Assembly (NCBI RefSeq): GCF_015277515.1
Contig: NZ_CP063767.1
Location: 186,001-250,000, forward strand
Origin: Thermophilibacter immobilis
GTDB taxonomy: Bacteria; Actinomycetota; Coriobacteriia; Coriobacteriales; Atopobiaceae
Length of the DNA: 64,000 nucleotides
Direction of reading: 5' to 3'
Below the pieces are notes generated by a model that ran no database searches, was not told the origin of the DNA, and saw only the letters and a list, made by a program, of their open reading frames with translations. Position 1 is the first letter of the stretch. Every line of letters begins with the position of its first letter. The position numbers were made by a program, and so were the translations under genes. Of this stretch, positions 34,320 through 39,003 are shown in pieces.

Positions 34320-35066
34320 CTAGAACAGTGCGCCCACCACGATAAGCGCCACGCAGGCAGCCAGGACGGCTCTGTCTCGCGCGACGAGCGGGTAACGCTT
34401 GTAGCTGCTCTCACGCGAGCGCAGGTAGAAGCCGCGTTGCTCGGCGGCGAGCGCCGTGGCGTCGGTCTTGCCCACCGAACTCACCAACAAGGGTATGCAC
34501 AGAGGCAGCATGAGCCGGAGCTTCTTCAGGGGGTTCTTGGTGTCGTACTCCACGCCGCGGGCGGTCTGCGCCTCCATGATCGCGTTCATCTCCTGGCCAA
34601 ACACGGGCACGAAGCGCAGCGCCGTGGTGAACGTGAACGCGTAGCGGTACGGTACGTGCAGCACCTCGACACAGGCATTGGCCAGGTCTCCCAGCTTGGT
34701 GACCGTGAGAACGAGGATGAGCGGCAGCGCCACGCCCAGAAGGCGCAGGCACGCCTTGGACCCCGTGGCCAGGCCGTCGATGGTGATCCAGGCAAAGACC
34801 GGCTCGCCCGTGCGCATGAAGGCCGTCTGGAGCAGGAGCATCGCCACGGCGAGCGGCACGAGCAGCTTGAGCAGAGACCCCAGACGCCCCAGAACGCCTG
34901 CATAGGCACCCAGAGCGAGCGTGAGCGCGAAAAGTCCCAGCAGGGCCGCGTAGGTCTGTGCGAGGAAGGTGGCCACGATGATGGCGGCCGCGAGCGCGAG
35001 CTTGGTCACGGGGTTCAGGCGGTGGAGCACGGTGGCGCCGGGCACGTAGTCGATGACGTTAATCAC
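34320..35066 (-). CDS. ecfT: Energy-coupling factor transporter transmembrane protein
   Basis: 248 residues with about 5-6 hydrophobic segments. The cytoplasmic coupling helices carry the EcfT Ala-Arg-Gly motif in EAQTARGVEYDTKNPLKKLRLMLPL and a second related AEQRGFYLRSRESS. EcfT bridges the ATPases to the S component and drives its toppling. Its start overlaps the ATPase stop by 8 bases (35059-35066). It is the last gene of the operon that begins with the Trp-rich leader peptide. Confidence 0.92.
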   Translation of the reverse strand: MINVIDYVPGATVLHRLNPVTKLALAAAIIVATFLAQTYAALLGLFALTLALGAYAGVLGRLGSLLKLLVPLAVAMLLLQTAFMRTGEPVFAWITIDGLATGSKACLRLLGVALPLILVLTVTKLGDLANACVEVLHVPYRYAFTFTTALRFVPVFGQEMNAIMEAQTARGVEYDTKNPLKKLRLMLPLCIPLLVSSVGKTDATALAAEQRGFYLRSRESSYKRYPLVARDRAVLAACVALIVVGALF

Positions 35067-36843
35067 GGGTGACCATCTCCTGGACGAGGTCGACGATGCC
35101 GGAGACCTGGCTTATCCCGGCGAACTCGGGCGAGACGCCCGCAGCGAGCGCCTGGGACAGGCGGACGACCTGGGGCGCCTCCACGCTCGCGCGACGCATG
35201 AGGTCGGCGTCTGCGAACAGGCCGTCCTTCTCGCCACGCGCGAGGACGCGGCCGTCGGCCATGACGACGATGCGCTCGGCGAAGTCCGAGACGACCTCCA
35301 TGTCGTGGCAGACCATGATGACGGCGCAGCCCGTCTCAGCCATCTCGCGCACGGTCTGCATCACGGTCATGCACTCGCGATAGTCCAGGCCGCTCGTGGG
35401 CTCGTCCAAGATGACGACCTGCGGCCTGAGCACGACCACGGACGCAAGGGCCACCATCTGCCGCTGCCCGCGCGACAGCGAGAAGGGCGCTTCGTTGGAC
35501 GGCAGGCCAAAGCGCTCGATTACCGCAGCGGCCTGACGGCGCGCCTCCTCGGGGGTCACTCCGTGCAACTCTGGTCCAAAGGCGACCTCGTCAAGGACCG
35601 TGTCACGGCAGAGCTGGTGGTCGGGGTTCTGGAAGAGGGTGGCCACGTGCTGGGCAATCTGGGAGACGGGAGTCTCGCGCGTGGCGAGGCCGGCTACGCG
35701 GACCTCGCCAGACGCGGGGCGCAGAAGGCCGTTCACGAGCTTGGTCAGCGTGGTCTTGCCGGCCCCGTTCTGCCCGACGATTCCCACGAGCTCTCCGGGG
35801 TAGACGGTCAGGCAGAGGTCGCGGACGGCGTCACCGCTGCCGGGGTAGGCAAAGCAGGCGTCGACGAGGCTGACCACGGGCTCGGCCCCCTGGGCGTGCG
35901 GCCGCACGGGCGCGTGCGGAGAGTCCGTGCGGCCTGCGGCGGGTGCGGGTCCGACGTCCGCCGCGACAGGCGAGACGTGCCCCGCCACGAGGTCGCCCAC
36001 GAACCGCTCGGCCTCGGCGACGTTCAGGCACGGCCCGTTGCCGGCTGCGGCGACGCCGTGCTGCACCAGGCTGTTGGACACGCGTGCCACGCGGGGGCTA
36101 TCCACCCCCATGCGCCTGAGCTCCTCGCCGTGGGCGAAGACCTCGTGGGGGGTCCCCGAAAGGGCGAGGCGCCCCTCGTTCATGACGAGGATGCGCCTGC
36201 AGTACTCCGAGAGCAGCGCCACCTTCTGCTCGATCACCACCACGGTGATGCCCTCGTCCTCGTTGATGGTGCGCAGCGTCTCGAAGACGAGCTTCGAGCT
36301 TGCGGGGTCGAGCGCTGCGGTGGGCTCGTCGAGCACGAGCACGCGGGGGCGCAAGGCCAGGATCGCCGCGATGGCGACCTTTTGCTTCTGACCGCCGGAA
36401 AGCGTGGCGATCTCGCGTTTGCGCAGATCGGGGATGGCCACGGTGTCCAGGGCCCGCGCCAGGCGACCCTCGATCTGGTCGTGGGCCACGCCGAAGTTCT
36501 CGAGCCCAAAGAGGAGCTCGTCCTCGACCACGGACGAGACCATCTGGGTATCTATGTCCTGAAGGACGCTGCCCACCACGTGCGAGATATCGGTGAGGCT
36601 GACCTCGCAGGTGTCCTGGCCGTCCACGAGCGTGGAGCCAAAGAGCTCGCCGGTGAAGTGATGGGGGATCGCGCCAGACAGGGCGGCCGCAAGCGTGGAC
36701 TTGCCGGCGCCTGACGGGCCGATCACGCCCACGAAGTCGCCGGCGCCCACGGACAGGCTCACCTGGTCGAGCGCGCGCCGGTCTGCCTGCGCATAGGTGA
36801 ACGAGACGTCGCGCATCTCGATGAGTGCTGTGGTGGATGGCAT
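35059..36843 (-). CDS. ecfA: Fused double ATP-binding protein of an ECF transporter (EcfA-EcfA')
   Basis: 594 residues from the ATG at 36843, with GGGAG 10 bases upstream; an ATG at 36870 has no such site. There are two complete ABC domains in one chain. Domain 1 has GPSGAGKSTL, LSGGQKQKV and VLDEPTAALDP. Domain 2, from about residue 310, has GQNGAGKTTL, LSRGQRQM and ILDEPTSGLD. An Ala/Pro-rich linker joins them. In most ECF systems EcfA and EcfA' are separate, but fused forms are common in actinobacteria. It hydrolyses ATP to power uptake by the S components just upstream. Confidence 0.93.
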   Translation of the reverse strand: MPSTTALIEMRDVSFTYAQADRRALDQVSLSVGAGDFVGVIGPSGAGKSTLAAALSGAIPHHFTGELFGSTLVDGQDTCEVSLTDISHVVGSVLQDIDTQMVSSVVEDELLFGLENFGVAHDQIEGRLARALDTVAIPDLRKREIATLSGGQKQKVAIAAILALRPRVLVLDEPTAALDPASSKLVFETLRTINEDEGITVVVIEQKVALLSEYCRRILVMNEGRLALSGTPHEVFAHGEELRRMGVDSPRVARVSNSLVQHGVAAAGNGPCLNVAEAERFVGDLVAGHVSPVAADVGPAPAAGRTDSPHAPVRPHAQGAEPVVSLVDACFAYPGSGDAVRDLCLTVYPGELVGIVGQNGAGKTTLTKLVNGLLRPASGEVRVAGLATRETPVSQIAQHVATLFQNPDHQLCRDTVLDEVAFGPELHGVTPEEARRQAAAVIERFGLPSNEAPFSLSRGQRQMVALASVVVLRPQVVILDEPTSGLDYRECMTVMQTVREMAETGCAVIMVCHDMEVVSDFAERIVVMADGRVLARGEKDGLFADADLMRRASVEAPQVVRLSQALAAGVSPEFAGISQVSGIVDLVQEMVTRD

Positions 36844-36933
36844 GCTGAGTTGCTCCCTGCTTGTGGGCATGGCCTGCGGACGTTCTCACAAAAAGGACGC
36901 CGCCCGAAGGCGGCGTCTCACATGGTAGTGCCC

Positions 36934-37491
36934 CTAGTGCCTGAGCACCTTGGCAAGCGGGACGAAGAGGGCCTGGACCACCACGGCGTTGAAGGCGGCC
37001 GTGCCCAGGACGACCGGGATCTTGACCACGGCGGTGGCCAGCTCGGCACCCATCGCGACGGTGCCCACGGCGGCGAACAGGCTCCCCGAGACGAGCGTGG
37101 CCACGAAGGCGGCGACGAGCGGCGTGAACCTCTTGCCGGCAAAGGTGAGGTCGAGGCGCATGAGGGCGGCCATGGTGAGGGCGCCGGCGACCTCGGTCAG
37201 GAAGTTAAGGCCGGGGATGGAGGTGCTGAGCTGGATGAGCGCCGCGGAGATGAGCCCGTAGAGGGCGGCCTGGGCAAAGCTCGCGTTGGTGAGGAGGATG
37301 GCGAGCGCGTAGGCGGCGATGATGAACTGGGGCTTGATGCCCGTCATGGCGAGCGCGTTGCCCACGGTTATGTTGAGGATGAAGCCGGCGGCCAGGAGGA
37401 TGGCAAGAAGCACGAGCGACGTGATGTCGAGAAGGCCGTGGGACTGGGCCTCGGCGCTGACGGTGCGGGCGGCGGGATCTTTCTCGGACAT
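36934..37491 (-). CDS. ECF transporter S component, second of two paralogs
   Basis: 185 residues from the ATG at 37491 (AAAGGAACCCCC before it). There are six hydrophobic segments. It shares LLAAGFILNITVGNALAMTGIKPQFIIAAYALAILL and the C-terminal block GTAAFNAVVVQALFVPLAKVL with the gene upstream. S components give substrate specificity and dock on EcfT. The general outline (VGNA, then IKPQF) recalls the TrpP-type S family. The Trp-codon leader upstream of the operon supports tryptophan or a related compound as cargo. Specificity is inferred. Confidence 0.85.
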   Translation of the reverse strand: MSEKDPAARTVSAEAQSHGLLDITSLVLLAILLAAGFILNITVGNALAMTGIKPQFIIAAYALAILLTNASFAQAALYGLISAALIQLSTSIPGLNFLTEVAGALTMAALMRLDLTFAGKRFTPLVAAFVATLVSGSLFAAVGTVAMGAELATAVVKIPVVLGTAAFNAVVVQALFVPLAKVLRH

Positions 37492-37547
37492 GGGGGTTCC
37501 TTTCAAGGTGGGGCGATCCTACGGGCGGGCGGTTCGGGACGACCGGG

Positions 37548-38120
37548 CTAGTCCGCGAGCTTGAGGGCCTTTCTGATGGGCAGGTAGAGGGCTGCGACGA
37601 GGATGCCGTTGAAGGCGCCGGTCGCAACCACGACGGGCAGCATCACGGCGGTCAGGTTCTGGGCGAAGCCCATCGTGGCCATCTTGATGATCATGAAGAT
37701 GGTGCCGGAGACCACGGTGGAGACGAACGTGCCCACGGCGGGCACGAACCGCTTGGCGCCGCCGCGCATCCCGACCTTGACGATGACGGCCATGAGCATG
37801 GCCGCGACCCCCTCAGCGGCAAAGTCGATGAGCGGTGACTTGGTGGTCAGCTGGATGACCGCGGCCGAGATCAGGCCGATGACGAGCGCCTGGGCGACGC
37901 TCGGGCGCACGATGAGGATCATCAGGCAGAAGGCGGCGATGATGAACTCGGGCTGGATGAAGCCACCCGTCATCGTGGAGACGGCGTTGCCCACGGTGAA
38001 GTTCAAGATGAAGCCGGCGGCGAGAAGGACGGCGAGCAGGACGAGCGCCTGGACGTCGAGCTTGCCGTGGTCGGTGGTCGCGACGGTGCGGGCGGTGTTC
38101 TTGTCGGTATCTGCGGACAT
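37548..38120 (-). CDS. ECF transporter S component, first of two paralogs
   Basis: 190 residues, six hydrophobic segments, paralogous to the next gene: LLAAGFILNFTVGNAVSTMTGGFIQPEFIIAAFCLMILI, KRFVPAVGTFVSTVVSGTIF and GAFNGILVAALYLPIRKAL. First structural gene of the ECF operon, AAGGAGAATCCC before the ATG. It lies 74 bases past an attenuator-type terminator that follows a leader peptide with three Trp codons. The two S proteins may form alternative or paired specificity units sharing one EcfT/EcfA engine. The cargo is probably tryptophan or an indole compound. Confidence 0.85.
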   Translation of the reverse strand: MSADTDKNTARTVATTDHGKLDVQALVLLAVLLAAGFILNFTVGNAVSTMTGGFIQPEFIIAAFCLMILIVRPSVAQALVIGLISAAVIQLTTKSPLIDFAAEGVAAMLMAVIVKVGMRGGAKRFVPAVGTFVSTVVSGTIFMIIKMATMGFAQNLTAVMLPVVVATGAFNGILVAALYLPIRKALKLAD

Positions 38121-38193
38121 GGGATTCTCCTTGGCTGTGTGATGGACATTCGGGTTCGTGCGGATTTGGGTTCGAAAACGTTGGATCGAGGCA

Positions 38194-38226
38194 ATAAAAA
38201 AGGGCCCCCGGTCTACCGGAAGCCCT
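38194..38226 (-). terminator. Attenuator terminator of the Trp-leader ECF operon
   Basis: On the minus strand GGGCTTCCGG and CCGGGGGCCC form a 10-bp stem (two G-U pairs) around TAGA, and seven T follow. It lies about 30 bases after the leader-peptide stop and 74 bases before the first structural gene. It can therefore block transcription of the whole operon when Trp-tRNA is plentiful. Confidence 0.8.
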
Positions 38227-38256
38227 CTGTGCGCGTAAAGGTATGGCGCGAGAGAC

Positions 38257-38334
38257 TCACGATCGACCGATCGAGGAGAGGCTGCGCCACCACCAGTTCA
38301 TGGACAGATTCGTGCTGCGGACGATGAGGGTCAT
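38257..38334 (-). CDS. Tryptophan-rich leader peptide controlling the ECF operon
   Basis: A 25-codon frame on the minus strand opens with ATG at 38334, nine bases after AAGGGAG, and closes at TGA 38257. Residues 13-17 are NWWWR, three consecutive TGG codons in a peptide that otherwise holds common amino acids. It is followed by possible alternative pairings: TGGCGC over the last Trp codon with GCGCCA at 38244-38249; and CTCTCGCGC with GCGCACAGAG just before the terminator. A 10-bp terminator comes next. This is the order expected for ribosome-mediated attenuation, as in trp operons. Stalling at Trp codons when Trp-tRNA is scarce would favour readthrough into the two S components, EcfA and EcfT. 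Confidence 0.85.
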   Translation of the reverse strand: MTLIVRSTNLSMNWWWRSLSSIGRS

Positions 38335-38376
38335 GGTGGGCGCTCCCTTCGGTGAGCTTCTCGTTGCGTTGCGGTG

Positions 38377-38406
38377 ACTATACGTCGCCGCGCAGCATGC
38401 GCGCAA
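38377..38406 (-). promoter_or_regulatory. Promoter of the Trp-leader ECF operon
   Basis: On the minus strand TTGCGC (38406-38401) and TATAGT (38382-38377) are separated by 18 bases. The -10 box lies 42 bases upstream of the leader ATG, so the transcript starts shortly before the leader peptide. No additional Trp-repressor palindrome is evident. Confidence 0.6.
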
Positions 38407-38486
38407 GGAGACAATTCACAGTTTTTCGTTCTGAAACAAAGCGGTTCGTGGTGAGTGGCGGTCCCGTGCCGTTTGTGAGGAGCGCG

Positions 38487-38530
38487 TTGACAGTCTCCCC
38501 TTCGCTCCATATTGTTAACCAGTCAACAAT
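38487..38530 (+). promoter_or_regulatory. marR promoter with overlapping palindromic operator
   Basis: Consensus TTGACA (38487-38492), a 17-base spacer and TATTGT (38510-38515). The palindrome ATTGTTAACCAGTCAACAAT (38511-38530) covers the -10 and start region. The typical layout for a MarR protein repressing its own gene; binding is inferred. Confidence 0.7.
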
Positions 38531-38553
38531 GAGAAGAGAGAGGAAGAGAAGAA

Positions 38554-39003
38554 GTGGCAGAGGAGCGATTCGAGGACTTCGTGGGGCTTATCGACGCGCT
38601 TCATCGAGAGATTCGGCGCATCAAGGCATCTGAGGCCGAACAGCTGGGCTTTAAGGGTGCGGATGTCATGTGCCTCCACTACCTCGCGCGTCATCCCGAG
38701 GGACTTACGAGCGCCGAGCTGGCGCGTCGTGCGGATGTGAGCCGCGCGGCCATCTCTCGCACCGTTGCGCGTCTGGAGGCGGAGGGGCTCGTCGAGATGG
38801 GCTCCTCGCAGAGTGATGCCACGCGCTATCGTGTCCCCGTCACGCTTACCGAGCGGGGCCACGAAGCCGCTCGCCCCATAGACGATATCGTGAACGGCGT
38901 GCTCAGGGAGACGGGCGAGGTTCTCTCAGAGTCACAGCGCACGCAGATGTACGACTCGCTTAATCAGATACTCAACCGGCTGGAAAGCATCGCACGCGAT
39001 TAG
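38554..39003 (+). CDS. MarR-family transcriptional regulator
   Basis: 149 residues from a GTG, with GAAGAGAAG before it. The winged helix is clear: ADVMCLHYLARHPEGLTSAELARRADVSRAAISRTVARLEAEGLVEMGSS, then DATRYRVPVTLTERG for the wing. Flanking helices form the dimer interface. MarR proteins repress stress or efflux genes until a phenolic or oxidant ligand binds. Its own promoter carries a palindrome. It is followed 43 bases later by a degV-type gene that it may co-control. Confidence 0.9.
   Translation: MAEERFEDFVGLIDALHREIRRIKASEAEQLGFKGADVMCLHYLARHPEGLTSAELARRADVSRAAISRTVARLEAEGLVEMGSSQSDATRYRVPVTLTERGHEAARPIDDIVNGVLRETGEVLSESQRTQMYDSLNQILNRLESIARD

Follow-up and report, generated by a model that had tools for sequence, protein, structure and literature searches.

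The attenuator of the E. coli trp operon consists of a leader peptide with tandem UGG codons, a terminator, and an antiterminator that competes with it. A similar set of parts is described for the trp attenuators of Corynebacterium and Streptomyces, where leader peptides with double or triple UGG codons are combined with a GC-rich terminator with a T run and a competing antiterminator (PMC1262725, in extract). The locus studied here lies in a 64-kb stretch of DNA, the whole of which is called the window, and brings together a short leader ORF, a terminator and the genes of an ECF transporter (Table 1). Comparison with its relatives makes it very probable that the element is a ribosome-mediated, tryptophan-specific transcription attenuator, which would control a dedicated group I ECF importer with TrpP-like S components, with L-tryptophan as its most likely cargo.

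A sequence-only reading of the window had pointed to a 25-codon leader with three consecutive TGG codons and a Shine-Dalgarno sequence, and these were found in the window as claimed. It had also proposed a terminator with seven T and a sigma-70-like promoter. The hairpin of the former is present: positions 37900-38700 contain a single terminator-like site (38228-38199, 13 pairs, loop of 4; shuffle mean 0.6), located between the leader ORF and the first ECF gene of the window. Its T run is interrupted after the sixth T. The promoter is weaker than claimed. There is a TATAGT as candidate -10, no good or convincing -35 was seen, and a scan of 37900-38700 returned no minus-strand promoter at the scanner's 9-of-12 threshold.

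Table 1. Features of the leader region and of the ECF operon in the window
Feature	Position	Strand	Remarks
Leader ORF, MTLIVRSTNLSMNWWWRSLSSIGRS	38257..38334	minus	25 codons + TGA; kept in relatives
Three tandem Trp codons, TGG x3 (TGGTGGTGG)	38287..38295	minus	invariant across 57 aligned leaders
Shine-Dalgarno AAGGGAG of leader ORF	38343..38349	minus	
Candidate -10 TATAGT of leader promoter	38377..38382	minus	48 nt before ATG
Strand 1: Trp codons + next codon	38284..38294	minus	predicted to pair with 38249-38240
Strand 2 of antiterminator	38250..38263	minus	holds leader stop codon
Strand 2' (GCGCCATACC), after stop	38240..38249	minus	predicted partner of strand 1
Strand 3: terminator 5' arm	38215..38227	minus	can pair with strand 2 instead
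Intrinsic terminator hairpin, strands 3 + 4	38199..38228	minus	
T6 run of terminator	38196..38201	minus	six T, then A, then TT
S component 1 (S1), TrpP-like	37548..38120	minus	24.5 bits (cut-off 27.2)
S component 2 (S2), TrpP-like	36934..37506	minus	23.8 bits (cut-off 27.2)
Fused EcfA-EcfA' ATPase	35059..36870	minus	TIGR04520, TIGR04521 over cut-off
EcfT, CbiQ family	34320..35066	minus	PF02361, 95.9 bits, over cut-off

Within the family ("family" and "order" are used here as kinship labels assigned by the genome tool), 69 of the 140 genomes encode a relative of the S1 protein. The single relative from a named genome collection, Olsenella profusa An794 (L032), belongs to the Atopobiaceae, Coriobacteriales in the NCBI taxonomy and carries the ECF operon. 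Two loci (L001 and L003) were dropped as duplicates of L002 and L032, and a third (L073), which begins inside the gene, was also dropped. An ORF with three consecutive Trp codons (WWW), followed by a terminator stem 14-40 nt past its stop, is found at 64 of the 70 loci with upstream sequence; counted by genome, a WWW leader is present in 63 of 69. Controls gave no such ORF: 0 of 70 loci had one when the opposite strand was read, and 0 of 3,500 dinucleotide shuffles contained one. The leader observation is confirmed and lies far from chance. All 64 WWW leaders have a match to a lenient Shine-Dalgarno motif before a start codon, and 57 of them have TANNNT 25-70 nt before the chosen start. Alignment of the leaders of relatives revealed no variation in the TGG run, and the 64 leader peptides mostly end in G[R/Q][S/W/L] before the stop (GRS 23, GRW 17, GRL 10). 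Among the loci without WWW, L058 has kept WW and a like terminator, and L060 and L061 a like terminator without a Trp leader. In L070 and L071 the leader is missing and a terminator-like hairpin of a different kind stands 240-280 nt upstream; L045 has neither a Trp leader nor a terminator. This outcome of the check for orthologous loci devoid of Trp codons and terminator alike supports the interpretation given in the sequence-only reading. TrpB over cut-off is present in the genomes of both L060 and L061 (G040 and G039, respectively), which may mean that the leader is being lost where tryptophan can be made. The L069 leader (G017:C7) is very divergent: it has WWW, a stop four codons on, and terminator arms unlike those of the others. 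In this leader, the terminator 5' arm contains TCAGAGT, the complement of an ACTCTGA found near the stop.

The alternative pairings were compared in an alignment of 57 distinct leaders (A1), from which L069 was omitted as too divergent. The terminator has 11 consensus pairs, and at least one compensatory change is seen in 9 of them. For the antiterminator formed by strands 2 and 3, 85.7% of the cells are paired, against 29.9-57.9% in registers slid by 1-3 columns. Shuffled partners still give 84.3% (3/500 as high), so the gain over them is small. Double changes occur in 8 cells, compared with 2.3 in shuffles (0/500), and 2 of the 10 pairs have double changes, compared with 1.8 in shuffles. The covariation in this helix is modest. 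In permutations that ignore relatedness, so that the resulting figures are not probabilities, the leaders' own 2:3 duplexes average -11.97 kcal/mol and permuted partners -10.87, with none of 10,000 permutations as strong (52 distinct pairs, L069 being counted with its strand 2 window misplaced). Two leaders of trpB2 genes (see below), L137 and L159, have the stop TAG instead of TGA, and their strand 3 differs to match. The leader stop usually lies inside strand 2. In several leaders of SNF genes (L184-L187) the stop comes earlier and the same strand 2 bases persist untranslated, which implies that the constraint there acts on the RNA.

A strand 1 sought downstream of the Trp codons gave no signal (mean z 0.13); one appeared only when the Trp codons were included. 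Its pairing with strand 2' was examined by the same kind of permutation, the figures of which are likewise not probabilities. Own pairs are stronger than permuted ones in the ECF leaders (-15.7 against -14.6; 51 pairs, 0/5,000 as strong), in the class set (-16.6 against -14.6; 21 pairs, 1/5,000) and in all 98 pairs together (0/5,000). Swapping within the trpB2 set, whose 26 pairs are of low diversity, gave no support (4,830/5,000 as strong). In the leader of the window, the predicted helix 1:2' crosses helix 2:3 and the two share no bases. Two such helices could be mutually exclusive or else form a pseudoknot.

The leaders were also folded with ribosomes placed on them. In these folds, which include L069 and omit L179 and L144, the ribosome footprint is blocked (its size is an assumption) and strand 4 has not been made. 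In 98 of 104 leaders (set A3 being 60 of the 104), a larger part of strand 3 is held by upstream sequence when the ribosome sits on the last Trp codon than when it sits at the stop. Averaged over the 57 ECF leaders, the fraction held is 0.72 for a ribosome at the third Trp codon and 0.48 for one at the stop (53/57 higher when stalled). The corresponding values are 0.67 and 0.40 in the trpB2 leaders (26/26) and 0.77 and 0.55 in the class set (19/21). The window's own leader holds 0.26 without a ribosome, 0.78 and 0.85 when stalled, and 0.73 at the stop; the states come in the right order, and the difference between stalled and stop is small. When the complete leader is folded to equilibrium, all states favour the terminator on average (set means 0.62-0.97); L182 in its stalled state (0.12) is an exception. 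With the terminator favoured in all equilibrium states, the switch has to be kinetic.

From these features we infer ribosome stalling and control of termination in the following manner. When Trp-tRNA is scarce, the leading ribosome would stall on the three UGG codons and cover strand 1. Strand 2 would then be able to pair with strand 3 before strand 4 is made, allowing RNA polymerase to continue into the importer genes. With ample Trp-tRNA, the ribosome would reach the UGA and cover strand 2, and strands 3 and 4 would form the terminator.

The same element is also found at other genes, so the finding appears to be wider than first claimed. A covariance model trained on nothing but ECF leaders (R1) was used to search the 140 genomes of the family. 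Beyond the ECF leaders it gave 14 weaker full-length matches, which end 239-348 nt before the matched part of trpB-like genes. Six trpB-like proteins, four with the leader and two without, were scanned and scored 552-574 bits with NF009057 (cut-off 366) and 490-506 bits, from fragments, with TIGR01415, just below its cut-off of 518.85. By these profiles, they are TrpB-like PLP enzymes. We take the enzyme behind the leader to be TrpB2, which converts indole to tryptophan. Of roughly 66 trpB2 loci in the family genomes, 46 were fetched; 30 of these have the leader and terminator (25 WWW, 5 WW) and 16 do not, where L144 is excluded as a chance ORF and L179, whose terminator has a G before the T run, is accepted by eye. 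Both L179 and L144 were omitted from the trpB2 leader comparison and from the strand 1:2' test. Twelve other R1 matches examined in the family were rejected as members of the regulon, having no WW leader and looking like terminators after genes or tRNAs.

Of 396 genomes of the class, R1 matched 158 (terminator-only matches included) and the S protein 203. Outside the family, 21 R1 matches (20 loci) were chosen in which the S gene was not evident or the score was weak, and all 21 have a WWW ORF. Their targets are trpB2 in 11 cases (one of which, L194, is cut by a contig end), an SNF/NSS symporter in 7 and ECF S genes in 3. The symporter cases are all in one genus, and the one scanned matched PF00209 with 168.7 bits. 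At L181 (G203:C1:1546500-1553500) an SNF/NSS gene and an ECF operon adjoin, each with its own WWW leader. At L189 (G296:C13), from another family of the order, a single WWW leader is followed by trpB2 and then by ECF S and A genes. A further model, R2, was run over 376 genomes of the phylum and matched 32 of them at E<=1e-4, 25 being in the order. A WW or WWW leader ORF is absent at the 7 R2 matches outside the order and at G187 inside it. Five further matches in the order (L220-L224) have a WW or WWW leader, with a trpB2-like ORF behind four of them, the fifth being L223. As to de novo trp loci, no WWW leader was found in 18 regions around trpB genes over cut-off, taken from 18 of the 44 genomes with TrpB over cut-off, with operon starts unmapped and two regions, L085 (8.5 kb) and L089 (3 kb), cut by contig ends. 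The WW ORFs that these regions hold look like chance.

The presence of one element before the importer genes, before trpB2 and, in one genus, before an SNF/NSS symporter would amount to a tryptophan acquisition regulon in the order. A more ambitious reading, which we hold tentatively and consider rather doubtful, is that a single Trp attenuator RNA family, so far found only in one order, defines this regulon of three unrelated targets (the TrpP-like ECF importer, the SNF/NSS symporter and TrpB2). In its ECF leaders, helices 1:2' and 2:3 would cross with few or no shared bases, and the antiterminator might take the form of an H-type pseudoknot instead of the classical switch with overlapping 1:2 and 2:3 helices.

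The nature of the importer itself has to be considered next. The two S components, the fused EcfA and the EcfT named in the sequence-only reading were confirmed by profile searches (TIGR04520, TIGR04521 and PF02361 over cut-off). S, A, A' and T are encoded together in the window operon, as in group I ECF transporters. S1 and S2 are 48-50% identical; such a pair in one operon is seen here, and many relatives show only one S component. Neither of the two reaches the cut-off of TrpP (PF17099), 27.2 bits, and their matches are near full-length. The S protein of L181, behind a WWW leader, is over that cut-off (33.1 bits). In a set of 61 S proteins (A2; 59 of 91 from the family and two from other families), 38 have a TrpP match at E<=1e-3 (best 1.2e-13), and no other Pfam family is matched at that level. 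The S protein of L188 has no TrpP match. The structure predicted for S1 has a pLDDT of 86.5. Its ten best folds in the PDB are all ECF S components (PanT, ThiT, RibU, FolT and others), at E 0.03 or weaker, none reaching 0.001, and with TM 0.46-0.64 of the query. Regarding the name TrpP, a trpP mutant was tested among S-protein mutants and tryptophan was named as an ECF nutrient (PMC11487621, in extract). The name calls for some caution: a C. glutamicum protein that also bears it, Cg3357, was found on examination to be no transporter (PMC11995493, in extract).

The cargo first proposed, tryptophan or an indole derivative, gains from the weak TrpP similarity of both S proteins, from L181 and from the occurrence of the element before trpB2 and the symporter gene. 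Tryptophan is the best guess, given the TrpP similarity, the Trp codons and the company of trpB2, and L-tryptophan is most likely what the importer carries. An alternative that accepts the attenuator is that the ECF transporter imports another compound (for instance indole, an indole acid or a cofactor), the need for which tracks tryptophan starvation. The Trp codons report Trp charging and not cargo, the S proteins of the window are below the TrpP cut-off, and two different S components may bind two substrates. Moreover, Olsenella species reportedly turn indoleacetate into skatole (PMC4767918). We nevertheless consider another cargo unlikely, considering that TrpP is the sole Pfam family matched among the 61 S proteins, that one leader at L189 precedes both trpB2 and the ECF S and A genes, and that the element also stands before the SNF symporter.

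Less probable still is that the divergently encoded MarR protein (38554-39003) exerts the main control and that the leader is minor or a relic. In the genus, many loci do have a MarR relative next to the leader, and the window has a palindrome in this region. However, MarR matches were obtained only at loci of the same genus (with about 1-1.5 kb fetched upstream). The leader, by contrast, persists in most of the other genera that have the operon, as well as in other families. The near-perfect palindrome, ATTGTTGACTGGTTAACAAT at 38511-38530, is situated ahead of the MarR gene and overlaps a promoter-like site on the plus strand (38487-38515), not the -10 of the leader. Autoregulation by MarR is a possible role for it.

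Two further explanations appear very improbable. One is that the terminator does no more than close a transcript from upstream, with a short ORF there by accident; terminator-like hairpins are common, as the 12 family matches without a WW leader illustrate. The upstream MarR gene, however, is oriented the other way, the conservation of the WWW ORF (64/70 loci, 0/3,500 shuffles) contradicts this explanation, and the model detects WWW leaders in front of unrelated genes too. The other is a T-box, an element that governs many transporters of amino acids in Firmicutes, or another tRNA- or ligand-sensing riboswitch. It has hardly any claim on this locus, given that in the 64-kb window the gathering score is not attained by any Rfam 15 family, the T-box among them (the five permissive matches comprise four over the hairpin region and a longer one of 9.6 bits), and that the conserved parts are the WWW ORF and the terminator arms.

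Attenuation by tryptophan, the reading we favour, can also be viewed against the tryptophan genes of the carriers. In the window's genome (2.16 Mb, one contig, 99.9% complete), searches for trpA and, for trpE, Anth_synt_I_N came back empty, and TrpB did not exceed its cut-off; 14 of 14 control genomes were positive in each of these searches. It contains a second element (900482-900382, minus strand), in which an intact WWW leader ending in GAWWWTRTSRLPD before its stop and a terminator precede a broken trpB2 (L180, G000:C1:899.7-900.5 kb, minus strand). The middle of this gene, about 215 of 477 residues in comparison with L192, is missing. With these genes unmatched and trpB2 broken, import looks like the main or only route to tryptophan. 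Among family genomes, TrpB over cut-off is found in 9 of 63 with the leader and S gene, 54 being without it, against 32 of 71 without the S gene (Fisher p 0.00014, uncorrected for relatedness or incomplete genomes). It is found in 3 of the 6 genomes that have the S gene but no WWW leader (p 0.06).

The regulatory sequence alone gives a testable cargo for an ECF family below cut-off and for an SNF symporter. Attenuation of the trp type would here be tied to uptake and salvage in bacteria that are mostly, it appears, unable to make tryptophan de novo, a use that differs from the textbook one. The switch may also matter for the fluxes of tryptophan and indole in the gut or mouth, and the covariance model could serve to annotate the regulon across the order. 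Among the matches listed in the open PMC literature, with subscription papers and preprints outside the scope, we found no account of a tryptophan attenuator placed ahead of ECF, SNF or trpB2 genes within this order.

Several described systems share parts of this arrangement. First, bmrCD of B. subtilis likewise has a leader-peptide attenuator on an ABC transporter, but it is a drug transporter under antibiotic pressure, whereas the window system has regulatory Trp codons and an importer (PMC4191407, in extract). Second, the His attenuators of Gram-positive bacteria were likewise predicted by comparison, with codon-run leader peptides and alternative hairpins; unlike the window system, they belong to histidine genes and other lineages (PMC9413887, in extract). 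Third, TrpP (PF17099), the tryptophan transporter of Bacillus, shares the S-component fold and a weak, near full-length similarity with the S proteins of the window. Unlike TrpP, these are paired and have their own ECF module, not a shared one. Finally, the window leader resembles the trp attenuators of E. coli, Corynebacterium and Streptomyces in its UGG run, its terminator with a T run and its antiterminator. Those of Corynebacterium and Streptomyces target trp biosynthesis and trpS (PMC1262725, in extract), and leaders of the window type stand before importers and trpB2. The mechanism would be textbook in kind, and what seems to be new are the targets, the majority of family carriers without TrpB over cut-off, and the crossing helices: unlike in the trp attenuators just named, the predicted pairings 1:2' and 2:3 of the window leader cross without shared bases.
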